This document shows, piece by piece, positions 4,791 through 54,985 of a stretch of DNA of 64,000 nt; within the stretch, counting starts at the first letter, position 1; each line of letters begins with the position of its first letter. A model generated the notes under the pieces. It made no database searches. It was not told the DNA's origin and saw only the letters and a list, made by a program, of their open reading frames with translations. Source of the stretch: Halobacteriales archaeon (GTDB taxonomy: Archaea; Halobacteriota; Halobacteria; Halobacteriales; SKSH01); contig SKSD01000030.1 of NCBI GenBank assembly GCA_007118145.1, forward strand, positions 1 through 64,000. The letters run 5' to 3'. Position numbers and translations under genes: made by a program.

Positions 4791-6179
4791 CTACTCGGTA
4801 GCTTCCTCGCGTGCCTCCATCTTGGCACGCTCGCGCGCGCTTGGGTGGACCGATGGCTTGAACGGGACCTCAGACACGTATGCCCGTACCGGCTCGCCAG
4901 GTTCGTCAGCGTACTCATCGGGCAGGTGCACGAGGAACTCCACCTCAAGGTCTTGTCGGTAGATCGCGTCATTCAGTGGGATGTCCGTCTCAGCCTGTAG
5001 TTTCTCGGCAGGGACGAACCCAAGCCCGACGTTTCGCTCGAGTTCGGGATTGTACCACGGCGACGTCATGTAGCCACACTCCTCGCCGGTGTCGGGATCA
5101 CTGATGAGCCAGAAGTCAGGTGCGTAATCCGTCACCGGTTCACCCTCGAACTTGAGACCCACGAGCTTGAGTTCAAACGGATACTCGCCGTTCTCGATCT
5201 GCTCCTTCTGTGCCTCGAGCACCTCCTTGCCGACATAGTCTGCATCCTTGTCATCCGGGACGTGGTACCCGAGGTTCACCTCAAACGGCGATGTCTCGTG
5301 GTCCATGTCCTGGCCCCACGAGAGGATACCCGCTGCGATACGGCGGTGGTGACCAGGTGCGATCACCTCTCCGTCGTATGACTTGACCGCATCCAACACG
5401 GGATACCACACCTTCTCGGCGTTATCCATCGAGTCCTTGACGTATATCTCAAAGCCTTTCTCCCCTGAGAAACCCGTCTGGCTGACCAGGACGGGTGCAC
5501 CGCCTATCTCAGCCTCCATCAGGCCGTAGTACGGTATCTCACTCACCTCATCCCCGACGAGGTCGACCAGGACGTCCTCAGAGCGTGGCCCCTGGATTTG
5601 CATCGGCGAGACATCGATCTCGTCAATCTCGACATCGAAGCCCTCGCCGACGTTGACTCCCTGCAACCAGAGCATCAATGTCGAGTCAGAGATGGAGAAC
5701 CAGAACTCGTCCTCGGCGATGCGTAACAGGATGGGGTCGTTGAGGATGCCGCCCTTCTCGTTGCACAGGATGACATACCGCCCGTGCATCGGTTCGATCT
5801 CGGTCGCATCGCGCGTTATGACGTAGTTGGTGAACGCCTCGGCATCAGGGCCCTTAACGCGGATCTGTCGCTCGACGGCGACGTTCCACAGCGTGACGCG
5901 GTTGACGAGCGGGTCGTACTCGGCCATCGCACCGCCATCCTCGGGCTTGACATACCCACGTGGGTGATAGATGCGGTTGTAGACTGTCGCCCGCCAGCAG
6001 CCCTCCTCGACGGATAGGTGCCAGAAGGGTGACTTGCGAACACGCGTCGAGATGAGCATCTCGATACCGGGGTCACCCGATTGCCTGAGGTTCCTCGGCA
6101 GCACACGATCTGACTGATCGACTGAGGAGTGATTTGGATCTTTGACGTCGGCCCAGTTAGAATCAGTTTTATTGGCCAT
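4791..6179 (-). CDS. DmdA/GcvT-like tetrahydrofolate-dependent methyltransferase (aminomethyltransferase family)
   Basis: A 462-residue member of the GcvT/DmdA family, which moves methyl or aminomethyl groups from a substrate to tetrahydrofolate. The segment LISTRVRKSPFW (residues 42-53) resembles the N-terminus of DmdA (DMSP demethylase). VTLWNVAVERQIRVKG (95-110) and GGILNDPILL (143-152) match the folate-binding T-protein core, with N147-D148 at the conserved Asp position. The C-terminal barrel domain occupies about 350-450. It is longer than GcvT (about 365 residues), and no gcvH or gcvP neighbours are present, so a role in ordinary glycine cleavage is unlikely. DMSP, dimethylglycine, sarcosine or a methoxy compound are possible substrates; I cannot choose. 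A TATA-like TTTAAG about 27-32 nt upstream of the ATG suggests a leaderless transcript. Confidence 0.8.
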   Translation of the reverse strand: MANKTDSNWADVKDPNHSSVDQSDRVLPRNLRQSGDPGIEMLISTRVRKSPFWHLSVEEGCWRATVYNRIYHPRGYVKPEDGGAMAEYDPLVNRVTLWNVAVERQIRVKGPDAEAFTNYVITRDATEIEPMHGRYVILCNEKGGILNDPILLRIAEDEFWFSISDSTLMLWLQGVNVGEGFDVEIDEIDVSPMQIQGPRSEDVLVDLVGDEVSEIPYYGLMEAEIGGAPVLVSQTGFSGEKGFEIYVKDSMDNAEKVWYPVLDAVKSYDGEVIAPGHHRRIAAGILSWGQDMDHETSPFEVNLGYHVPDDKDADYVGKEVLEAQKEQIENGEYPFELKLVGLKFEGEPVTDYAPDFWLISDPDTGEECGYMTSPWYNPELERNVGLGFVPAEKLQAETDIPLNDAIYRQDLEVEFLVHLPDEYADEPGEPVRAYVSEVPFKPSVHPSARERAKMEAREEATE

Positions 6180-6204
6180 TACCTAGAAAAGACTCGCCAG
6201 CATA

Positions 6205-6212
6205 CCTTAAAC
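6205..6212 (-). promoter_or_regulatory. TATA-like promoter element for the DmdA/GcvT-like gene
   Basis: On the minus strand GTTTAAGG sits about 26-33 nt before the ATG at 6179. In haloarchaea this spacing matches a TATA box driving a leaderless mRNA. A further AT-rich AATAAATAT lies upstream at about 6214-6224. Confidence 0.45.
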
Positions 6213-6384
6213 GCACATATTTATTCCCAATTACTGGTGAATAGCCTCCCCCCGAGGGTGAAGAGAACCATCTCGCTCGATCTGAGATGTGGTCGCACGC
6301 TACCCGACAAGGCTAGCATACCTGACGATACACAGTAGATTCGTGGATCGGGATCATCCACTCGCTACCGTCAATCGTAGTGGG

Positions 6385-6804
6385 CTAATCTTCGATGATG
6401 GCGATAATGTCCCCCTCGTCGACGATGTGGTGTTCCTCGCCGGCGATCTCGAGTAAGACACCATCATCGAAGAAGAATACGCTATCTCCCTCCTCGACAT
6501 GGTCACCGTCGCCAGTCGCTCGAACGATCCCCCTGAGGTACTCTGCACCTTGACCAGGTCTCGCACCTGATCCTGTTCGGTCCTCTGTCTCTTCCTCTTC
6601 GATCAATACTCTGTCAAATGTCGGTGTGATGTTCATTGTGATTGTGATGTCGTTTGTATCTTGTGCTGCAGCTCCACTGAGTTGGCCACCTGTCAGTACC
6701 GTCACACCCGCGATACCCGCAAGTTTACCGAGTGATCGACGACTGATGCTGACCGATTCGTAGCGCCGCTGTATGCTTTCGTGTGTAGGTTCCTCTACCG
6801 GCAT
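6385..6804 (-). CDS. Tat-signal protein with GroES (Cpn10)-like domain
   Basis: A 139-residue protein from the ATG at 6804 (an in-frame start at 6843 adds 13 residues). A twin-arginine signal SRRSLGKLAG is followed by a hydrophobic stretch and an Ala-rich cleavage region (GAAAQ). The rest, about residues 57-139, follows the GroES order: DRVLIEEEETEDRTGSG, then RGIVRATGDG, then VEEGDSVFFFDDGV, then ILxIxEGDIIAIIED-like ending. GroES is normally a cytosolic partner of GroEL, and haloarchaea mainly use group II thermosomes, which need no Cpn10. An exported Cpn10-like fold is therefore odd. It may be a non-chaperonin binding domain, lipid-free or membrane-held by an uncleaved signal. It is divergent from the Mch-like gene. 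Confidence 0.7.
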   Translation of the reverse strand: MPVEEPTHESIQRRYESVSISRRSLGKLAGIAGVTVLTGGQLSGAAAQDTNDITITMNITPTFDRVLIEEEETEDRTGSGARPGQGAEYLRGIVRATGDGDHVEEGDSVFFFDDGVLLEIAGEEHHIVDEGDIIAIIED

Positions 6805-7054
6805 GATTGCTCGATATGAAGATTGCTCATGGTGTGCTCTCACTTGCTCAGTCGTCGTGTCAAACTTCGGATTGTGACACCTCGATCAAACTGTCGAGTG
6901 TTGCGTAATTAAATTTTTCCGTCACGAACTTATAGTGAATTTATTGACGTATCGGTGGTGACATCACCGCACTCACCAAGGGTCGTGTTAGCAAGTATAT
7001 ATTCCGCACTTGAAACCTCACAACCTCAATAGTCCACAGACACAACACAGCGAC

Positions 7055-7840
7055 ATGCACCCAGACGCAGTCGAGCTTATTGACGAGGCGATTGACTTCG
7101 CTGGCAACCTCGGCCTCGGTGTGACGAGGCTACCCACGGAGACGACCATCGTTGATGTTGGAATCGATGCCGAGGGTGGCTACGAGGCGGGGTTGGTCCT
7201 CGCAGAGCTCAGGTATGCTGGCCAAGTGACGGCCGATGTCCGGCCACGACGCCTCGGCGATCTCACCTGGCCCGTCGTCGATGTCATCGCCGATCGACCG
7301 ACCGAGGCTATCGAGCTAGCCATGCCAGCGATCCAGCTGGCAGAGGCAGATATCACCCTCACCGGCCCGTCACTCGACGGGTCGACCGACCCGTTCGCCG
7401 TCATCATCGCCGAATCAACACAACCCATTGGCGATGAGGAGGCGAAGGCCATCGCCGATCATCTCGGGGTCAACCCATCCAGCCTGTACATCGCAGGTGT
7501 CAGCCCAGGCCATCCGACGTGGTGTGTCTACGAGGCAACCCTCTCACTGCTGACCCTCGGTGAGGTGTTCGAGGCTGAGGGGGTGCTCGATCACCTCGAA
7601 GGTGCACTCCTCAGGGTACCGACCACACCACCGTTCACATATGAAACCAGTCCTGACACCCCCTGCCCACGCAGCCTCGCAGGCCGGGCACACCTCAGCT
7701 TGGGTGAGTCGATCGATACCCAGCTACTCGATAGATTCGTCGAGTCTATCATCGCCCAGGTGACGTTTACGACACCAGATGGTACTGTCCACACCCAAGG
7801 GTCGACCGACCCCGAGGCGTTCGCAGAGACGATCACATGA
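7055..7840 (+). CDS. Methenyl-tetrahydromethanopterin cyclohydrolase (Mch)-like protein, shortened
   Basis: A 262-residue protein beginning MHPDAVELIDEAI. The order of segments follows Mch, the enzyme that opens the methenyl bridge of the pterin carrier: TTIVDVGIDAEGGYEAGL (near the Mch VIDCGV..EAG start), a PVVDVIADRPTEAIELAMPA region, PFAVIIAESTQPIGDEEAKAIAD, then GVNPSSLYI and a C-terminal IIAQVTFTTPDGTVHT segment. Methanogen Mch has about 315-320 residues. Here the central and C-terminal parts are shorter, and I do not see the GSGPARA loop. Catalytic competence is thus doubtful. A TTG start at 7010 would add 15 residues; the ATG is preferred. It overlaps the next gene by 4 nt (ATGA). Confidence 0.62.
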   Translation: MHPDAVELIDEAIDFAGNLGLGVTRLPTETTIVDVGIDAEGGYEAGLVLAELRYAGQVTADVRPRRLGDLTWPVVDVIADRPTEAIELAMPAIQLAEADITLTGPSLDGSTDPFAVIIAESTQPIGDEEAKAIADHLGVNPSSLYIAGVSPGHPTWCVYEATLSLLTLGEVFEAEGVLDHLEGALLRVPTTPPFTYETSPDTPCPRSLAGRAHLSLGESIDTQLLDRFVESIIAQVTFTTPDGTVHTQGSTDPEAFAETIT

Positions 7841-41569: not shown

Positions 41570-41962
41570 CCATGCCACCTGTAAGAGCCCTGAATACGGT
41601 CATCAAAGGCCATCGTATCTCACCCATCCGGTAACTGATCATCCGGATATGATGTGTCACAACATGCTATCGAGGGGATCGCCACCATGATGGAGGTGCC
41701 TAAAATATTAGGGTCACCCGAATTTCGAACAGTAGCTCGATATGGCTCTCACCGAAAAATAACCGAGACAGACTTCCCACTTCATATCATATATTTGGTA
41801 TATTGATACCGGTTGGATACATGACTTATATCCGCTATACTCGTGCTTCATGAAATTAATCAATTGAGATTGATATGAACCGGTGCTCGGCCACCATCCC
41901 GTGATACCTTCACATTTTAGGTTCGCATTTGAATGGGAATACTTTGGTCTATGAGAGTGGGA
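41570..41962 (+). promoter_or_regulatory. Upstream region of the exoprotease cluster
   Basis: 393 bp without a gene. It becomes AT-rich towards the protease gene, with TATA candidates at TATCATATATTTGG (41785-41798) and ACTTATATCC (41824-41833). ATCAAT (41859-41864) and ATTGAT (41869-41874), separated by TGAG, form an operator-like inverted repeat about 90-105 bp before the start chosen at 41963. The segment before about 41690 has no recognisable content. Confidence 0.45.
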
Positions 41963-44900
41963 ATGTCAGATAAACCCACACAAGATGAACCCAGGCAGAT
42001 TCCTTTTCAGCACGATTCCCCAACAGGTGAAGTAACATCAGATCGAGCCGATGCGGTCGCACGACGTGACTTCCTGCGTTCGACATCAGCGGTGGCTGCC
42101 CTCGGCTTGGCAGCACCCACAGTTGTCACACAGGATGTGGCAGGTCTGATCGGTAACGATCCCGCGCCAGATGACATCCTCGTCTTCGCGAACCCGAGGG
42201 TGCAGGAGGCGATGCACGCATGGGAACGCGGCTATCGAGGTAACCCGATGCGATCGCTCGCGTTGACCGACACCGGTGTCGACAGTCGTCATCCGGACAT
42301 CGGTCCGTGGAACGGTATCACCGCGACCACGGCGAATGGTGAACTTGAGCTCCGTCGGATCGATCAAGACCGTGATTGGGAGCCCGACACGACGACCCTC
42401 GACGAGGAGGTATTCGAGGGCGAGGAGCTCGGTGGTGAGGTCGTCGGTTTCAGCGAGACGTATGAACTCGATGTCCCAAAGGGTACAGAATTGATCGAGG
42501 TGACACTCGATTGGGACTCCACGACGTCGGACGATATCGAATTGCGATTCCTCGAAGACGGCAACCAGCGAGGCCTCGATCGGTCGGACGAGCCGCCACT
42601 CACCGTCGAGTATCACGAACCAGACGAAGACACCACCTTCGAGATCGAGATCATGGTCTGGTCTGGTGTCATCGACTACGTCGCGACAGCCACCCACAGC
42701 GAGGTCAGCGGTCACCTGACCCCACCGTGGGAACCCGACGATCCCGATCCATTTGCACTCGTCGATGATACCGGTGAACCCGCGCTCGTTGGGTGGCACA
42801 ACGATTTCCCACGGTTCGGCCGATATACCAGACCTCGCGACGAGAACAGTCACGGCACGCACGTGGCCTCGATCATGGCAGGATCTGGCCGGGCAGCCAC
42901 GTTCGACACCGATAGCCTCCAGTTTGACGCACCGAGAACGACCCTCGTCCTCGGTGATACACTCACGTACACCGTCGATGCTGAGGCTGACACCGGTGTC
43001 TTTGCTAGTGTATACGGATCGGCTATCGATGTCATCATCGAGGGTCCTGATGGGCAGGAACTCGCAGGGGCATACGGTGCCCAGGGGACGAGCGAGGAGA
43101 CGTTCGAGAACAATATCGCAGAGACACCAACGGTCCACGACGATGGGGAGGCAACCTACATGGTGCACGTTCGGGCCGTTGAGGGTGAGTTGCTTTCAGT
43201 GGGCAATGTCGAAACCGTCGCAGTCGGTGTGTTCAAGCATCCGGTAGACACAGCTGGTGACGCCCTTGACACCGGCGATATCTCGCTCCATGGGGGTATG
43301 GCACCCGGGTACTCGATCACCTCACTGTCGGATCTCGGCACGGCGACCGTGGCCATCGGCGAGTTCGCCGATTCGTTCGCCGAGACGTTCAACATTCGAG
43401 CGGTCAACATGTCCTGGGGGTACATCGGAGGCCTACCGTTGGGTGGCGCGGGCGGGATTCTCGACGACATCCCGACGTATATCCGCAGTCTTGCCAACGC
43501 AGGCATGCTCAGTGTGGCTGCAGCTGGCAACGATGCCACACCGGCGAGCGGTAACGGGGCTCCTGCGGTGGTGAATGAGGCGATCTCGGTCGTTGCAACC
43601 GATCGACGAGATGGGATCGCATCCTACTCAAGTGGCGGCATTGGTGGCATCGACGACGAGTCTGGCGAATTCTACATGAAACCTGATGTCACCGCACCAG
43701 GTGGCGAGCTCACCGAGTTGGACCTCGCGGCGTTAACTGGGGATCCTGAGGCGAGCTTCACAGATAGGGAGCCAGCTGCTGGGCTGGGTGAGGCAGAGTT
43801 GGAGCCCGTTGTTGACATAGAGGACCTCGATGGCGACGATGTCGCGCCGAAGACGGTCCTTGACGCTGGCATCACCGGCGAACTTGGTTATGAACCGGAG
43901 CTGAGCACGGTCGTCATCGACGCGTTCGAGGAGGAAGCGCTGCTCGCTGACCTCCTGCTCAACCGACACGAGGGTCGCGAACGGGGTTCATCGAAGGGCA
44001 GAGGTGGCGGTGGGCGCCCACATGACGGGATCGAGGGCGATGGTCGCGACGGCGTACGTGATTTCACCGGGAAGGGTGGCACAAGCATGGCAGCCCCATC
44101 GGTCGCCGGTGTCACCGGCCTCGTCGCAGATGCCCTTGAGAACGATGCACCCGAGGCGATTTCGATCCCCGAACCTGCTGAGACGGGTTACGAAGACGTA
44201 CTCAGACTCAAACAGATCATCCTCGCAACGGCCACGGAGACGGCACTCACCGCAGCTCCGTATCACGCTGCGAAGGCGCCGGTCTACCGATTTGGAGAGC
44301 GCGATCAGTACGAGGGTTACGGCCGTGTCAACGTCGGCCCGGCAATCGACGCTGTGACGGTCGATCTGACCGAGACCTCGACAACGGGCGAGGTCGGCCT
44401 CGATATCCCCCGAGATGAGCGTGCCGTGGCCGGGTACGTCCTCGTTGACGAGCCCGGTGAGGCGAGTGCCACCATCGAGTTCAGTCACTACGGTGGAGGC
44501 AATGCAGGTGCCACTCGGGGTGATCCACACCTTGACCTCTTCGTCTACGATGCCCAAAACCCCGATCCTCTCACCGGTGAACCGACGGTCGTCGCGCGTG
44601 ATGCCGGTGTGACCGGCGATGCGGAGGTGTCGTGGAGCGTGAGTGTTGACGACCTTGATGATAACGACGGCGAACGTGTCTTCTTCGTCGTTGCCAAGCT
44701 TGTCAATGTCCCTGGTTTGGTCAACGGCTTCGATGTTCAGGTGTACATCGACCTCGAGACAGCCTTCGACGCAGATGGACTCGTCGTCGGTGCCGGTCGG
44801 GAGGGAGACGGCTCTGTGTTCACCGGCGGACAGACCACCAGGAACGACCTTGATGTCGAGGTACTGTTTCCAGAGGGTGTGGAAGTGCTTATCCGCGATC

Positions 44901-45193
44901 ACGCCCCACCAGGGTGGGATGTCGACGAGGAGTTCGGCGATACCGAGGCGACGACGCCAGCGTTAACCGGTGGCACGCACGTGTACTTCGGCATAGACGA
45001 CCCGAGCGACCTCTTCGAGGAACTCACCTACTTCTCTGAGGCCCCCGATAACATCGAGGATTCTGGTCGTTACACCTTCGGCCCGATCGCCGTGACGACA
45101 GAAACTGATGAGGAGGGGACTCTGACCGACCGTGACTGGGTGACGATCGCCGGTACGGAGCGTGAGGTGACGGTCGTCGCAGAAGAGACCTGA
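41963..45193 (+). CDS. Tat-exported subtilase (S8) with large inserted domains
   Basis: A 1076-residue exoprotease, numbered from the ATG at 41963 (an in-frame start at 41933 is also possible). The Tat signal is RRDFLRSTSAVAALGLAAPTV. The catalytic triad is D103 (LALTDTGVDSRHPDI), H297 (NSHGTHVASIMAG) and S708 (GTSMAAPSVAGV), with an oxyanion region SVAAAGNDATPASGN. Spacing is abnormal: about 194 residues between Asp and His (about 32 in subtilisin) and about 411 between His and Ser (about 157). The first insert looks like a PPC-type beta sandwich (ELIEVTLDWDSTTSDDIELRF), the second like another beta domain (TLVLGDTLTYTVDAEADTG). A Gly-rich segment precedes the Ser. The C-terminal about 130 residues are shared with the M14 and LVIVD genes. 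Confidence 0.9.
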   Translation: MSDKPTQDEPRQIPFQHDSPTGEVTSDRADAVARRDFLRSTSAVAALGLAAPTVVTQDVAGLIGNDPAPDDILVFANPRVQEAMHAWERGYRGNPMRSLALTDTGVDSRHPDIGPWNGITATTANGELELRRIDQDRDWEPDTTTLDEEVFEGEELGGEVVGFSETYELDVPKGTELIEVTLDWDSTTSDDIELRFLEDGNQRGLDRSDEPPLTVEYHEPDEDTTFEIEIMVWSGVIDYVATATHSEVSGHLTPPWEPDDPDPFALVDDTGEPALVGWHNDFPRFGRYTRPRDENSHGTHVASIMAGSGRAATFDTDSLQFDAPRTTLVLGDTLTYTVDAEADTGVFASVYGSAIDVIIEGPDGQELAGAYGAQGTSEETFENNIAETPTVHDDGEATYMVHVRAVEGELLSVGNVETVAVGVFKHPVDTAGDALDTGDISLHGGMAPGYSITSLSDLGTATVAIGEFADSFAETFNIRAVNMSWGYIGGLPLGGAGGILDDIPTYIRSLANAGMLSVAAAGNDATPASGNGAPAVVNEAISVVATDRRDGIASYSSGGIGGIDDESGEFYMKPDVTAPGGELTELDLAALTGDPEASFTDREPAAGLGEAELEPVVDIEDLDGDDVAPKTVLDAGITGELGYEPELSTVVIDAFEEEALLADLLLNRHEGRERGSSKGRGGGGRPHDGIEGDGRDGVRDFTGKGGTSMAAPSVAGVTGLVADALENDAPEAISIPEPAETGYEDVLRLKQIILATATETALTAAPYHAAKAPVYRFGERDQYEGYGRVNVGPAIDAVTVDLTETSTTGEVGLDIPRDERAVAGYVLVDEPGEASATIEFSHYGGGNAGATRGDPHLDLFVYDAQNPDPLTGEPTVVARDAGVTGDAEVSWSVSVDDLDDNDGERVFFVVAKLVNVPGLVNGFDVQVYIDLETAFDADGLVVGAGREGDGSVFTGGQTTRNDLDVEVLFPEGVEVLIRDHAPPGWDVDEEFGDTEATTPALTGGTHVYFGIDDPSDLFEELTYFSEAPDNIEDSGRYTFGPIAVTTETDEEGTLTDRDWVTIAGTEREVTVVAEET
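44788..45190 (+). repeat. Shared C-terminal module, copy 1 (in the S8 protease)
   Basis: Starts near GREGDGSVFTGGQT and contains VEVLIRDHAPPGWDVDEEFGD, TPALTGGTHVYFGIDDP and the SGRYTFGPIAVTT end. It aligns by eye with the ends of the M14 carboxypeptidase and the LVIVD protein. It is at the protein level and is probably a secreted-protein attachment or interaction domain. Confidence 0.8.
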
Positions 45194-45234
45194 TCAAATC
45201 CGTCACAGACAGCGCGACAATCAGTAATCCCAAC

Positions 45235-48200
45235 ATGACAGCACACGATCCTACCACACACAACGTTTCAGACAGGGGAAGGCTTGAGGAACGAACAACC
45301 GAGCATGTCGACCGACGCTTTGAGGATACCCCACTAACGCGGCGGCGATTCGCGATACTGGCAGGTACCATCGGCGGTGCGTTGGCGTTGCCTGGCAATG
45401 CGTACGCAGATATCGAGTCGGGCAAGATGACTGAGGAATACGAGTTCATTGTCAACCATACTCCTGATGACTTCGCCGTATCGACGGTGATCGAGTTCAC
45501 CAGTATCCTGGGTATCGCCGATCTCAAAGACCTCGGCATCGAGGTGGATGACGATTGGACGCTCGATGAGCCACCAGCAGCATACGCACAATTGACGACG
45601 AGTCAGGTCGAGGATGTTGTCGAACTTCCGACCGCTGAAACGCTCAGTTGGGCTCCTGGGTCGAACCCATTCTGGCGCCTTGGACAGTATCCATTCGGGG
45701 TGTTCCCAGCACCGTACCGCTCGGTCGACTTCATCCATTACGAGCAGATGATCTCGGGGATGGAGTATCTCGGGGCAGAGCACCCCGAGATGCTCAAATT
45801 CTACGCTCTGGCAGACGAAGACAATCCACACGATGTCGTCTATGACCGGAGTCCGGGTCATAACAACAACCTCACCGATCGACACGATCCAAAGGATATC
45901 CACGTCGCCGAGTTGACGAAACCACCCGATGGCTACGACACCCTCGAAGAGTTCAGGGACTCGAAGCAATTCGCCGAGCGCCAGAAGGTGATGTACGAGG
46001 CGTCCATCCACGGTCTCGAACGGGCTGGTCCCGAGGCCTGTTATCGCTTCATCGAGCGCATCCTCACCGGTAGAGAGATCGAGTTCGAGCAGTTGCTCGA
46101 TGAGTGCGTCCTCATCATCCTCTCTGTCAATCCCGACGGGTGGGTCGCCCGTGACCCCCAATACGACAGCGGGTGGCAGGTCACCGGGGAGGGCCGGGAC
46201 GACCTTCGCTTTCCTGCCTGGCCCCAGTACGAGCGGGGCAATGCGCAGGTGTTCGATACCAACCGACAGTACCCAACCGTCGGTTGGGTCAATCCGGGTT
46301 ATCACCCGGGAGAACCGGACGAAGACCGGTGGGCCGAGGACAATCCCCACGACATCATCAACATGGTTCCGGATGCCATGGGGACGGTCGAGCACTTTCG
46401 CCAGTACGACAATCTCACCCACGGCGCTGACCTTCACGCGATGTTGTGGAACTCTGACTTCATCCTCGGCCTCATCAACCAGATCGAGTACACGCAAGAC
46501 GAATTCCATGACCTCTATGAGATGAACCACGTCCTCGAACAGAGCCTCGAGGCAAAGATGGACGAGTGGGAGTCACTCGCCGATATTCAGCATGAGGCGG
46601 CGGACGACTTCAACGTCGACCTGTTGGGGTTTCCAGTGCTTCCAGAGACGGCATACGACTACTCGACCATCTGGGACACGATCGGTTACACCGTCACCGG
46701 TGCACTCATCGGCTTCATGGGGGCAGCCGAGGAGCGAGGCGGCCTTGACGTGACGACGATGGCCTTCGAGATGGCATTCAGTCACATGGTGGGCGGGAAC
46801 AAGTGGGAACCCGTCCTCGGTGAGTGGTGGGTTGAGGGTTACATGGAGGCGATGCGGACGATGACGGACTACGCGTTGCGTGACGTGGATTCCGAGGTCG
46901 CGACCCCCGATGGAACGGTCGAGACGGTCGCATTTGTGACGAGTGACACGGTCATCCGGTCATCAGACGACCTCGAGTTCCTTCAGGAGGATCCTGACAA
47001 CGAGGAGACCAACGCCGTCATGACTCACGACCATCAGCAACTGGAGGTGGCAGCAGAATCGGTCGAGACCACGACCGTGGACGTTGCCTCGAACCTGCAC
47101 ACGCTATCCATCCAGCCACACGCTGAGCAGGCGCTGGCTGACGTGGTCCTCAGAGATCCCGATGGTGCAGAGGTACGGGCATACCGCCCGTCTGATACCG
47201 GTGGTGAGGCGCACCACGACTACGAACCGTTCGTTGTCCGCGAACCCGTAGGTGGTACCTGGACGGTCGAGGTGACGAGTCTGATGGCCGAGCACCCGGT
47301 CCAGATGGACCTCCACGTCGGGACGCTCCAGTCCGACTACGAACACCCAGACCCACGTGACGCCCTTGGCTTCGAACAGGAGGCATACGAGGTCTCACCG
47401 CTCGTGTTCTTCGATGAGTTCGCGGCTGACAACGACCTCGTCGAGACCGTTGGGTTGACCCCAGAGGAGGTCTCCACCGAAGGGATTGACGCAGACCACC
47501 TCGTGGTCATCCACGACGACCGTGGTGAAGACCCGGTGGGATACGTGGATGCCATCGATGCCTTCGTCGATGCTGGAGGGAACCTCGTCGTGACAGACAC
47601 CGGGGTGCACCTCCTCGGGGCACTCGAGTCAGTCGATGGCATCTCCAGCGACGACATCAGCGACGAGACCTTCGGGGTCAGCCATCTCGAAGAGCGTGTC
47701 GAGGACCACCCACTGCTCGTTGATACTCGGCCGATCCAGCGCATGACCTGGAAGGTCGCGCCGCTTGGCTACCCATACGCCAACGACGCCCCGATGACAC
47801 TCGTCGACGACGATGCCTTCATCACGGCCGGGGGTACCGTCGCCGGGTTGACCGATGACCATGTCAGCGCTGGCTCGATCTTCACCGACGACGAGGCTTG
47901 GCAGGGTATCCACGTCATCGGCGGGCTGTTGCCGCCGGCTACCCAGCGGGAGCTGCATCCCTTCGGACTCAAGAACTACGTGATGGCCTACTTCGGCCTG
48001 ACCGTCCTGATCAACGCCCTCGGGATGGAGCAACATCGCTTTGTCGACGGTGAGCTCGTCCGGGTCATCGGGGATACCGGAAAGGAACCGATCACCCCAG
48101 ACCTCACGGTCATCGGTGACCGTGATGGCTCTGGCAGCGTCTTCACCGGTGGCCAGACCAACCGGACGGAGCTGGACGTCGAGGTGGTGACACCACCTGA

Positions 48201-48516
48201 GGAGACGGTTCTTGTCCGCGATCACGTTCCTGAGGACTGGGATGTTGACGAGGAGTTCGGGGATGTCGAGGCGACGACGCCGTCGATGTCCGGTGGGACG
48301 TGGGTCTACTTCGGCCTCGACGACCCTCAGGGTGATTATGCTGACCTCACCCACTTCGCCCAGGCACCAGACGACCTGCTCGAGTCGGGTACCTACACGT
48401 TCGGACCGATTGAGGTAACGACGGATACCGAAGCTGATGGTACACTGATCGACCGCGACTGGCAAGCGATCGAGGGCAACGATCTGTCCGTGACGGTCCT
48501 CGGATTACACACTTGA
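45235..48516 (+). CDS. Tat-exported M14 zinc carboxypeptidase, multidomain
   Basis: A 1093-residue exported metallopeptidase. The Tat signal is at about 35-55 (TRRRFAILAGTIGGALALPGNAYA, N-terminal region long). The zinc ligands H259-x-x-E262 (ASIHGLERAG) and H401 (ADLHAML) fit the M14 pattern, with LILSVNPDGW as the usual strand between them. After the catalytic domain come a beta domain near 640-700 (ADVVLRDPDGAEVR, GGTWTVEVTS) resembling the P-type or PPC fold, a Rossmann-like region at about 720-870, and the shared C-terminal module from residue about 959. Extra length compared with carboxypeptidase A (about 310 residues) is due to these. Lies 41 nt after the S8 gene. Confidence 0.88.
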   Translation: MTAHDPTTHNVSDRGRLEERTTEHVDRRFEDTPLTRRRFAILAGTIGGALALPGNAYADIESGKMTEEYEFIVNHTPDDFAVSTVIEFTSILGIADLKDLGIEVDDDWTLDEPPAAYAQLTTSQVEDVVELPTAETLSWAPGSNPFWRLGQYPFGVFPAPYRSVDFIHYEQMISGMEYLGAEHPEMLKFYALADEDNPHDVVYDRSPGHNNNLTDRHDPKDIHVAELTKPPDGYDTLEEFRDSKQFAERQKVMYEASIHGLERAGPEACYRFIERILTGREIEFEQLLDECVLIILSVNPDGWVARDPQYDSGWQVTGEGRDDLRFPAWPQYERGNAQVFDTNRQYPTVGWVNPGYHPGEPDEDRWAEDNPHDIINMVPDAMGTVEHFRQYDNLTHGADLHAMLWNSDFILGLINQIEYTQDEFHDLYEMNHVLEQSLEAKMDEWESLADIQHEAADDFNVDLLGFPVLPETAYDYSTIWDTIGYTVTGALIGFMGAAEERGGLDVTTMAFEMAFSHMVGGNKWEPVLGEWWVEGYMEAMRTMTDYALRDVDSEVATPDGTVETVAFVTSDTVIRSSDDLEFLQEDPDNEETNAVMTHDHQQLEVAAESVETTTVDVASNLHTLSIQPHAEQALADVVLRDPDGAEVRAYRPSDTGGEAHHDYEPFVVREPVGGTWTVEVTSLMAEHPVQMDLHVGTLQSDYEHPDPRDALGFEQEAYEVSPLVFFDEFAADNDLVETVGLTPEEVSTEGIDADHLVVIHDDRGEDPVGYVDAIDAFVDAGGNLVVTDTGVHLLGALESVDGISSDDISDETFGVSHLEERVEDHPLLVDTRPIQRMTWKVAPLGYPYANDAPMTLVDDDAFITAGGTVAGLTDDHVSAGSIFTDDEAWQGIHVIGGLLPPATQRELHPFGLKNYVMAYFGLTVLINALGMEQHRFVDGELVRVIGDTGKEPITPDLTVIGDRDGSGSVFTGGQTNRTELDVEVVTPPEETVLVRDHVPEDWDVDEEFGDVEATTPSMSGGTWVYFGLDDPQGDYADLTHFAQAPDDLLESGTYTFGPIEVTTDTEADGTLIDRDWQAIEGNDLSVTVLGLHT
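48110..48513 (+). repeat. Shared C-terminal module, copy 2 (in the M14 carboxypeptidase)
   Basis: From about GDRDGSGSVFTGGQTN, through ETVLVRDHVPEDWDVDEEF, TPSMSGGTWVYFGLDDP, to SGTYTFGPIEVTTDT. It is the closest relative of copy 1: GSVFTGGQT, DEEFGD, EATTP and YTFGPI are identical or nearly so. Confidence 0.8.
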
Positions 48517-48541
48517 TTTACATCACCCACACAACACTTCA

Positions 48542-50050
48542 ATGACACGAACTGACCCGACGACACGAAGCGTATCGAACAGACGACGATTCCTCAGACT
48601 CATCGGTGTCACCGGTGCCGGTGGTCTCACCCTTGGTGCCACCCTCCCCGGCGCTAGCGGGTTCGTCGAGGATGAACTGTACGAGGTGATCATCGTCTTC
48701 GAATCAGCTGATGACGTCGACCTGTTGTTCGACCTCGATCTTGAGACCGGGGTGTACGAGTACGAGATGCTCCCCTTCGCATACACGATGCTCACCGGTG
48801 CGCAGATCGACACGGTCGTGACCTGGCCAGAGGTGCTCCGTGTCGCAGAGAACGAACAGCTGCAGTGGGAGCATGACGACGCCCGTGCGGATACCAGGGC
48901 CAACGACGTACAGGCCGGGGAGGGATTGGACTCGCCGTATACAGGTGAGAACGTTCATGTGGCTGTCGTTGACACCGGTATCGATCCATTGCATCCAGAT
49001 CTGGCCGGCAACATCGAGGGCCACTGGCAGTGGGTCGGCGATCCGCTATCAGATCCTCAGGGGACTGTCTGGATCGAGGCAGGCGATGTCAACACCGACG
49101 ATAACGGACACGGCACCCACTGTGCGGGCAGTATCACCGCAACCGGGACACAAAGCGATGGTGAGTTCCGTGGGATGGCACCGGAGACGAGTATCACGGC
49201 CTACTCTGTGAACATCACAGTGTCGATCGACAAGGCCATCGCAGCGTATGATCATATGATGCAACTTCAGGAAGCAGGCGATCACGAGATTCACATCGCC
49301 TCGAACTCGTGGGGTGCCGGTCCCGGTGAGTTCGACCCGTACGACCCGTTCAATGTCGCCGCATGGAAGGCCCACGAGATGGGCATCCTCACGACGTTCT
49401 CCGCTGGGAACGACGGCGAGGCGTGTGAGACAGAGCTCGGACTCAACTGCTGGACGGAGTTCGACACCCTCGGGCATCGAAAACAGGCACCGTACGTACT
49501 GAGCGTCGCTGCCACGCATGCAGATCAGTCTCTGGCGTGGTTCTCCTCCAGAGGTGCCAAGGACCTGAATCACGATCGAGAGGAGGCTTACCAGAACATG
49601 GTGAAGTTCTATTCTGGCGTCCCTGAGGACGAGATCGATGGCCCACTCGGGCTGTACCGACCGGCCGTCGGGGCCAAGGGTGCAAGCCTGATGAGCACGC
49701 TCAACCCCGCCCATCCGTTACAGGCGGTCGAATCGGATACCGAGGTGTGGTACGGTCGGCTATCTGGAACGAGCATGTCGAACCCGACCGTCGCAGGCTG
49801 TGCAGCATTGCTCATCGATGCATATATCGAGAACGTCGGCGAGGTACCGGACCCGATGGCGGTAATCAACACCATCGAGGCAACGGCTGACCCACATGCC
49901 ACCGACGGACTGGAGGATCCAGACGGAACTGCGACGTACACGGTGATGAACATGGGGACAGGCTATGTCGATGCACTCGCGGCGACACAGCGAGCTGAGA
50001 ACGGTGACCTGGCTGACTTCGATGAGGTGGAACTCCTCCCAGGTGACTGA
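48542..50050 (+). CDS. Tat-exported subtilase (S8)
   Basis: A 502-residue halolysin-type serine protease of normal layout. Tat signal SNRRRFLRLIGVTGAGGLTLG; a propeptide of I9 type at about 40-115 (YEVIIVFESADDVDLLFDLD). The catalytic triad is D144 (AVVDTGIDPLHPDL), H190 (NGHGTHCAGSI) and S411 (GTSMSNPTVAGCA), with oxyanion N in FSAGNDGEACE. Cysteines near 193 and in GEACETELGLNC could form disulfides or bind metal. It has no shared C-terminal module, unlike its neighbours. It is 25 nt after the M14 gene and 3 nt before the LVIVD gene. Confidence 0.9.
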   Translation: MTRTDPTTRSVSNRRRFLRLIGVTGAGGLTLGATLPGASGFVEDELYEVIIVFESADDVDLLFDLDLETGVYEYEMLPFAYTMLTGAQIDTVVTWPEVLRVAENEQLQWEHDDARADTRANDVQAGEGLDSPYTGENVHVAVVDTGIDPLHPDLAGNIEGHWQWVGDPLSDPQGTVWIEAGDVNTDDNGHGTHCAGSITATGTQSDGEFRGMAPETSITAYSVNITVSIDKAIAAYDHMMQLQEAGDHEIHIASNSWGAGPGEFDPYDPFNVAAWKAHEMGILTTFSAGNDGEACETELGLNCWTEFDTLGHRKQAPYVLSVAATHADQSLAWFSSRGAKDLNHDREEAYQNMVKFYSGVPEDEIDGPLGLYRPAVGAKGASLMSTLNPAHPLQAVESDTEVWYGRLSGTSMSNPTVAGCAALLIDAYIENVGEVPDPMAVINTIEATADPHATDGLEDPDGTATYTVMNMGTGYVDALAATQRAENGDLADFDEVELLPGD

Positions 50051-52906: not shown

Positions 52907-54985
52907 ATGTCCACCGAGCAAGACGACCTTGTCAAGACGATCTGTCCATACTGTGGTGTCGGGTGCGGACTGCAGTTGCAACCGGGCGATGAGCCAGGTG
53001 AGGTATCGATAAAACCGTGGTTCGACAACCCCGTCAACGGTGGTGCACTGTGCATCAAGGGTGGTGCGTCGACCCAGGTGGTCGATCACGAAGAGCGCCT
53101 CAAGGAGCCTCTCATCAAGGAGGACGGCGAGTTCCGCGAGGCGAGCTGGGACGAGGCGCTCTCGTTGATCGTCGATGAACTCATGCGCATCCGTGATGAG
53201 CACGGACCGGATGCGGTCGGTTTCTTCGGTTCATCGAAGGTGATGAACGAGGAGAACTACCTGCTTCAGAAGCTGTCGCGTCGATTCGGGACAAATAACG
53301 TGGACAACTGCACGCGCATGTGTCATGCATCGACCGTATATACACTCCGTCAAAGCCTCGGGGCAGGTGCGATGACCAACAGCATGCAGGACCTGATGGA
53401 GGCTGGTGATGTCTACTGGATCCAGGGGGCGAATCCGGCCGAACAACACCCTATCGCACATAGCCAGTACCTCAGACAGGCTGCCCTTGAGGATGCCACC
53501 ATCATCCAGGTCGACCCTCACGCCAACAAGACCACACGTGACGCCGATATCCATCTCCAGCTCGAGCCCGGAACCGACATCCCGCTTTTGAACATCGTCA
53601 TCAAGACGATCATCGACGAGGGTCTCATCGATGAGGCGTTCATCGAGGAACGCACGAAGGGATTCGATCACCTCAAGGCGACCCTGGCTGACTTCGATAT
53701 GGAGGAGGCAGCCGATATCTGCGGTGTGCCACTCGAGGACATCCAGGAGGCTGCACGAATCTATGGTGAGGCTGAGAACGCCGCCATCTTCACCGGGATG
53801 GGTATGAGCCAGCATACCTGCGGTGTCGATAACGTGCAAAACGAGGTCAATCTCGCACTCATCACGGGCAACCTCGGCCGACCGGGGACAGGCGTCAATC
53901 CACTCAGGGGTCAGAACAACGTCCAGGGGACGTGTGACGTCGGTGCGATGCCGAACGTCCTACCCGGTTACCAGAACGTCGATGATGATGAGGCACGGGC
54001 ATCAGTCGAGGAGGTATGGGGCTTTGAGATCCCACCCGAACCTGGGCTGACCAACGTCGAGATATCGAACGCGATCGGCGAGTCCATCCATGGGCTGTTC
54101 GTCATGGGTGAGAACCCCATCATGAGCGAGCCCGATTCGAACCACGTCGAAAAGCGCTTCGCGAACGACCTCGAATTCCTCGTGGTCCAGGATATCTTCA
54201 TGAGCGATACCGCCGAGTACGCCGACGTGATCCTCCCTGCGACGAGCTGGGCAGAACGTGGTGGGACCGTCACCAACACAGACAGGCGTGTCCAGTTGAT
54301 GCGCCCTGCGACGAGCGTGCCTGGCAACACCCGCCATGACATCGATATCCTCTGCGAGCTCGGTACCCGGATGTTCGGCGAGGGATTCGACTTCGACGAT
54401 GTCGAGACGGTCTTCGAGGAGTTGCGGCAGGTCTGTCCGATCTATCACGGGATGACGTACGAAGCCCTCGGGCTCGAGGGCATCCAGTGGCCGTGTTATG
54501 AACCCGGCGACGAGGGTGACCAGTATCTATATGAGGAGTCGTTCGACACACCCGATGGCCTTGGCGCCATCAGGGGTGTCTTGCACCAGCCCCCAAAGGA
54601 GGTGCCAGACGACGAGTACACGCTCATCCTCACCACGGGCCGACTCGAAGAGCACTACAACACCGGGACGATGAGCACGCGCTCGCCCACACTCATCCGG
54701 CGGACACCGGAGAACTTCGTAGATATCCACCCGGCCGATGCGGAGGCACGCGGTATCGAGGATGGTGACTACGTGAAGATACGATCACGCCGTGGCGAAA
54801 TAGTCCTCGAGGCGAACGTGACGGAGGATATCAAGGAGGGGTCGATCTGGACGACACCTCACTTCTCAGATGCACGGGCGAACACACTCACGAACAACGT
54901 GATGGACCCACTGGCAAAGATCCCCGAGTACAAGGCTGCTGCAGCCGAGGTAGAACGCGTCGAATCAGGTCAGGCGGCCGACTGA
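52907..54985 (+). CDS. Molybdopterin formate dehydrogenase, catalytic subunit
   Basis: A 692-residue molybdopterin oxidoreductase oxidising formate to CO2. The [4Fe-4S] ligands are C13-x2-C16-x3-C20 and C49 (TICPYCGVGCGLQ and GGALCIKGG). The Mo ligand is C139-H140 in CTRMCHAST, cysteine and not selenocysteine. Family motifs GNLGRPGTGVNPLRGQNNVQGTCDVGAMP and DIFMSDTAEYADVILPATSWAERGGTVTNTDRRVQ (in part) are typical of FdhF. No N-terminal ferredoxin domain and no fdhD or electron-transfer subunit are next to it. It has an inverted repeat in its 5' region. It would remove formate released by Fhs. Confidence 0.87.
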   Translation: MSTEQDDLVKTICPYCGVGCGLQLQPGDEPGEVSIKPWFDNPVNGGALCIKGGASTQVVDHEERLKEPLIKEDGEFREASWDEALSLIVDELMRIRDEHGPDAVGFFGSSKVMNEENYLLQKLSRRFGTNNVDNCTRMCHASTVYTLRQSLGAGAMTNSMQDLMEAGDVYWIQGANPAEQHPIAHSQYLRQAALEDATIIQVDPHANKTTRDADIHLQLEPGTDIPLLNIVIKTIIDEGLIDEAFIEERTKGFDHLKATLADFDMEEAADICGVPLEDIQEAARIYGEAENAAIFTGMGMSQHTCGVDNVQNEVNLALITGNLGRPGTGVNPLRGQNNVQGTCDVGAMPNVLPGYQNVDDDEARASVEEVWGFEIPPEPGLTNVEISNAIGESIHGLFVMGENPIMSEPDSNHVEKRFANDLEFLVVQDIFMSDTAEYADVILPATSWAERGGTVTNTDRRVQLMRPATSVPGNTRHDIDILCELGTRMFGEGFDFDDVETVFEELRQVCPIYHGMTYEALGLEGIQWPCYEPGDEGDQYLYEESFDTPDGLGAIRGVLHQPPKEVPDDEYTLILTTGRLEEHYNTGTMSTRSPTLIRRTPENFVDIHPADAEARGIEDGDYVKIRSRRGEIVLEANVTEDIKEGSIWTTPHFSDARANTLTNNVMDPLAKIPEYKAAAAEVERVESGQAAD

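Follow-up and report, generated by a model that had tools for sequence, protein, structure and literature searches.

A haloarchaeal Cpn10-domain protein with a predicted Tat signal and an altered GroEL-binding loop

The stretch of DNA analysed here (the window) comprises the first 64,000 nucleotides of contig SKSD01000030.1 from a Halobacteriales archaeon, and carries a small gene in which a domain of the GroES/Cpn10 co-chaperonin family appears to follow a Tat signal. This raises the question of what such a domain might do beyond the cytosol, and whether it still belongs to a chaperonin system at all. We suggest, with a probability of roughly 0.6, that the product is a Tat-exported, GroEL-independent Cpn10 barrel, probably ring-forming, which has taken on a task at the surface or outside the cell; this reading concerns a single gene from a single assembly of 79% completeness. 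Its chief competitors are that the gene is a groES remnant in decay, or that a cytosolic protein is translated from an internal start codon, Met57. The relevant features of the gene are the following.

6385..6804, minus strand: complete gene encoding a Tat signal and a Cpn10 domain, 139 aa (ORF and Pfam match)
6664..6804, minus strand: predicted Tat signal peptide, residues 1-47, with cleavage predicted after AAA (sequence, hydropathy, Tat signals of other proteins for comparison, genomic TatC genes)
6736..6741, minus strand: twin arginine, residues 22-23 (sequence)
6388..6636, minus strand: Cpn10/GroES domain, residues 57-139, 83 residues (profile, phmmer, alignment, fold model)
6541..6591, minus strand: mobile-loop region, residues 72-88, without the hydrophobic GroEL-binding tripeptide (alignments, lowest loop score of 54)
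6487..6513, minus strand: residues 98-106, where only a short turn is left of the roof hairpin (alignments)
6388..6414, minus strand: C-terminal strand GDIIAIIED, a subunit-joining strand in GroES (strand score)

The open reading frame runs on the minus strand from an ATG at 6804 to a stop codon at 6387-6385, and its 139 residues read, in succession, MPVEEPTHESIQRRYESVSISRRSLGKLAGIAGVTVLTGGQLSGAAA, QDTNDITIT and MNITPTFDRVLIEEEETEDRTGSGARPGQGAEYLRGIVRATGDGDHVEEGDSVFFFDDGVLLEIAGEEHHIVDEGDIIAIIED, with the predicted cleavage between the first and second parts and the start of the Cpn10 domain, Met57, at the beginning of the third. The frame looks coding. On a codon score trained on the neighbouring genes it reached +0.20, against -0.31 and -0.62 for the two remaining frames on that strand, and the neighbours themselves ranged from +0.15 to +0.43 on this table, a range slightly flattered by their own inclusion in it. 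Taken separately, the Cpn10 domain scored 0.33, inside the neighbours' range of 0.15-0.43, and the signal-coding part a neutral 0.01. As is to be expected in an archaeon, a scan for sigma-70-type promoters and terminators gave no hits.

Sequence comparison identifies the domain as a real Cpn10. In particular, the Pfam Cpn10 profile (PF00166) matched residues 58 to 137 over positions 1-93 of 93, at E=1e-6 and with 29.1 bits, where the curated gathering score is 21.1 bits. This places the protein within the family and bears out, over the whole profile, the Cpn10 pattern that the sequence-only reading had traced from DRVLI to GDIIAIIED. The PHROG GroES family matched at 2.2e-5, and no Cpn10 match was obtained for the reversed domain or for eight shuffles. 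NCBIfam GroES models gave matches down to 9e-7, yet far under the NCBIfam cut-offs, which points to a divergent member. The identity with E. coli GroES is 40% over 83 aligned columns, Met57 being aligned with Met1 and MNI opening both sequences. Among solved chains, phmmer ranked chloroplast Cpn20 best (7.5e-7), with E. coli GroES at 4.7e-5; the N-terminal Cpn10 half of Cpn20 (7ekq chain R) also has a short roof region, but Cpn20 consists of tandem domains, retains a GGVLLP loop and has chloroplast Cpn60 as its partner.

Compared with bacterial GroES (PF00166; E. coli GroES, 1aon chain O), the protein shares the full-domain profile, the predicted barrel and the N- and C-terminal strands. However, it is predicted to be exported, is strongly acidic, has lost the loop tripeptide and the roof hairpin, and has no GroEL beside it in the assembly. 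We scored the separate elements of the domain against 53 other Cpn10s (from E. coli, viral contigs and other Halobacteriota), leaving each sequence out in turn. The mobile-loop region, at -14.6, was the lowest of the 54 (mean 39.1 and minimum -10.2 for the other 53), a rank to be taken as descriptive, since related archaeal sequences dominate the set. At the positions corresponding to 25-27 of E. coli GroES the protein has A-R-P, whereas in 51 of the 53 others position 25 is occupied by I or L. The N-terminal strand (19.8 vs. a mean of 23.5 for the other 53) and the C-terminal strand (15.7 vs. 18.3) were ordinary. At -18, the net charge of the protein lies outside the range of the 53 other Cpn10s (-8 to +3), which fits a long residence in a halophile.

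The loop is the part of GroES by which GroEL is held: its Ile-Val-Leu touches GroEL, and the GroES mutant L27A is unable to interact with it (PMC3514286). The loss of the roof alone is not decisive, because phage T4 gp31, which is also devoid of roof loops (PMC6318259), still works. The two proteins resemble each other in fold as well (Z 9.3), but gp31 functions as a lid of GroEL and has a 22-residue mobile loop, whereas the haloarchaeal protein has a motif-less loop and no GroEL partner in its assembly. Loss of co-chaperonin function appears to be the best explanation of this sequence pattern, and the absence of the GroEL-binding tripeptide, which the sequence-only reading had not mentioned, strengthens its suggestion of a re-used fold. 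In GroES, the terminal N- and C-strands join the subunits into a ring; their retention here suggests that the ring has been kept, and a GroES-like ring is probably still formed through them. A Cpn10 family on viral contigs (L129, 501-812, and the related L130-L135) is also without the usual Gly-Gly-hydrophobic loop motif, so that loss of the grip on GroEL may have occurred elsewhere too.

The 1.72-Mb assembly, 78.7% complete, contains a single Cpn10, the 6804-6385 protein, and its two Cpn60-family genes are thermosome alpha and thermosome beta; no groEL (group I chaperonin) was found, at a completeness that leaves room for one to be missed. Furthermore, no other genome above the Cpn10 cut-off occurred among about 435 sampled haloarchaeal genomes (391 for the class and 392 for the order, overlapping), and the open-access literature searched held no report of a Cpn10 in haloarchaea. 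Within this coverage, the earlier statements that the gene stands alone, has no groEL and is a rarity among haloarchaea hold good. The weak domain matches across Halobacteria were attributed to chance, as most of the seven loci inspected were long Arg/His-rich frames such as the antisense strand of a GC-rich gene typically gives; the weak Cpn10 profile matches in the order covered the profile partially and lay mostly inside large frames. No close relatives were found in GTDB contigs (two scans), IMG/VR, PLSDB or INPHARED, the contig scans requiring near-exact peptide words, so that remote orthologues may be missed, and no orthologue of the putatively exported Cpn10 turned up in the databases and genomes searched.

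At the level of the phylum, 73 further genomes carry an ordinary Cpn10, all of them outside the class Halobacteria and presumably methanogens, judging from a Methanosarcina control and the known distribution. Their proteins, e.g., those of Methanosarcina, are likewise archaeal and belong to the same phylum and family, but the sampled ones keep the hydrophobic loop motif, were not seen to carry a Tat signal and form in our tree a supported clade of their own that excludes the haloarchaeal protein (99/99). The latter lies on the longest branch, 2.8. The tree supports only the exclusion from the methanogen clade and gives no source of the gene.

The site of the gene could be compared with that of one other genome of the same family (G391) by means of the two flanking genes.

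4791..6179, minus strand: downstream neighbour, GcvT-like aminomethyltransferase, flank for the empty-site comparison (sequence match)
7010..7840, plus strand: upstream divergent neighbour, MCH-like protein, flank for the empty-site comparison (sequence match)

In G391, the GcvT-like and MCH-like matches are separated by 154 bases that contain no Cpn10, against about 830 bases between the corresponding ORFs of the source contig; the Cpn10 gene has been either gained in the source lineage or lost in G391. As to the neighbourhood itself, the MCH-like neighbour matches no more than roughly the first third of the MCH profile and is divergent beyond it, and this is the sole MCH match in the assembly. 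In addition, the word GCYAGCATACCT occurs at 6196-6207 (+), 6312-6323 (+), 7211-7222 (-) and 53808-53819 (+); three of the five copies in the 1.72-Mb assembly fall within about 1 kb around the Cpn10 gene, and two of them sit in the interval that separates it from the GcvT-like gene. Because the word was chosen for repeating here, selection accounts for part of the excess; the repeats may have a regulatory function or be due to chance.

These data bear on the possibility that what remains here is a groES of bacterial or phage origin, decaying or without function, which landed by chance behind a signal sequence. Such an origin would agree with a singleton that is missing from the same site in G391, with the longest branch of the tree (2.8) and with the loss of both loop and roof. 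We nevertheless consider it unlikely, as the frame is intact, the codon use of the domain is host-like (0.33), the acidic adaptation is strong and the interface strands have been kept while the loop changed.

The reading of an exported Cpn10 depends equally on the N terminus, which by its sequence fits a Tat signal of the haloarchaeal type. The features recognized by pattern are SRRSLGK, a 21-residue uncharged stretch and AAA followed by QD, with no lipobox cysteine; the Tat signal that had been proposed ahead of the domain is thus seen again in the SRRSLGKL...AAA-QD pattern and its 21 uncharged residues. Several of the weak full-length matches in relatives begin with clear Tat signals of other proteins, e.g., MPNRRSFLKLTGAVGGTALAGGTAAAQ, and a weak match in the same genome falls on the N-terminal part of an M14 peptidase with a Tat-type signal (45235-48516). 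The matches in relatives were rejected as homologues, being Tat signal peptides of other proteins, and support the signal only. The genome encodes the Tat translocase: TatC was matched three times, in two frames that lie next to each other, and one of these has two TatC domains. At this locus (G000:C81:138511-141763), the single-domain and the double-domain proteins adjoin on opposite strands. Elsewhere in the window, three consecutive large peptidases with Tat-type signals, an M14 carboxypeptidase between two subtilases, occupy 41933-50050. Use of the pathway is predicted for 39-55% of secreted haloarchaeal proteins (PMC2945643). We infer that the present protein is exported and cleaved after AAA.

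It is possible to hypothesize instead that translation starts at the internal ATG (Met57), giving a cytosolic GroES, and that the upstream frame is untranslated. The exact alignment of Met57 with Met1 of E. coli GroES, with MNI in both, and the neutral codon score of the signal-coding part are what this start would predict. On the other hand, a complete in-frame Tat signal with its AAA site lies just upstream, and when the 64 kb were scanned crudely for signals of this kind, just 2 of the 11 hits were frames overlapping other genes and non-coding in appearance. Moreover, the loop motif that a cytosolic GroES would need for GroEL is gone, and GroEL itself was not found in the assembly. Taken together, we regard a start at Met57 as quite improbable.

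With regard to the fold, AlphaFold2 without an alignment was uninformative (pLDDT 40). When guided by an alignment of eleven Cpn10 relatives from viral contigs (A1), it gave a model with a pLDDT of 80.9, in which 49 of 91 residues reached at least 90 and the loop (28-38) stayed below 50; three other GroES alignments placed the short roof region worse and were left out of the model. For the alignment-guided model, the first 35 Foldseek rows were all GroES/Cpn10-family chains (best E 1.6e-5), and the VIA-align Z was 12.7 for M. tuberculosis Cpn10 and 10.4 for E. coli GroES; Cpn10s ranged from 8.6 to 12.7, and the other folds listed, mostly dehydrogenase-type domains, lay at 7.6 or less. The comparison with GroES by structure prediction, which had been proposed earlier, does give a GroES barrel, though the good model needed a GroES alignment. 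Since the alignment of GroES relatives steers such models, this one indicates compatibility with the GroES beta-barrel fold and is no independent proof of it. That the domain is some other small beta-barrel (the GroES-like domain of alcohol dehydrogenases, or a biotinyl domain) matching Cpn10 by chance is very improbable: a weak Biotin_lipoyl match (E 0.18) and the dehydrogenase-type domains in the next tier of fold matches would agree with it, but the Cpn10 match is full-length, above the cut-off and gone in shuffles, and on the alignment-guided model Cpn10s have Z 8.6-12.7 against 7.6 or less for other folds among those listed.

Returning to the exported Cpn10 barrel, we propose that a Cpn10 domain gained a haloarchaeal Tat signal and lost its co-chaperonin function. 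The precursor would be made and folded in the cytosol and exported in the folded state by Tat, a pathway that exports folded proteins and for which a barrel of the size of GroES is a plausible cargo. Cleavage after AAA would then release an acidic protein of about 92 residues, which would probably assemble as a GroES-like ring by means of its N- and C-terminal strands. Function as a chaperonin lid is unlikely, because there is no ATP-driven GroEL outside the cell and the loop tripeptide has been lost. Most likely, the product would act at the cell surface as a small scaffold, a ring or a barrel, that binds some other component located there or outside the cell. What we infer in this scheme is that the protein is exported, cleaved, assembled into a ring and put to work at the surface, most plausibly in a structural or binding capacity.

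More tentatively, and at slightly less than even odds, we would see here an extracellular Cpn10 ring that stands wholly outside the chaperonin system, with grip and roof gone, the ring strands kept, a Tat signal placed before the old start codon, and a use at the surface of an archaeon that has no group I chaperonin. To our knowledge, the Cpn10s reported outside cells are usually the ordinary protein with no dedicated signal. In the present protein, an export signal is joined to a Cpn10 whose chaperonin-docking motif has apparently been lost. If confirmed, this would be a clean and testable example of how the lid of a chaperone can become a building block outside the cell, and it would come from a class of archaea with hardly any other Cpn10.
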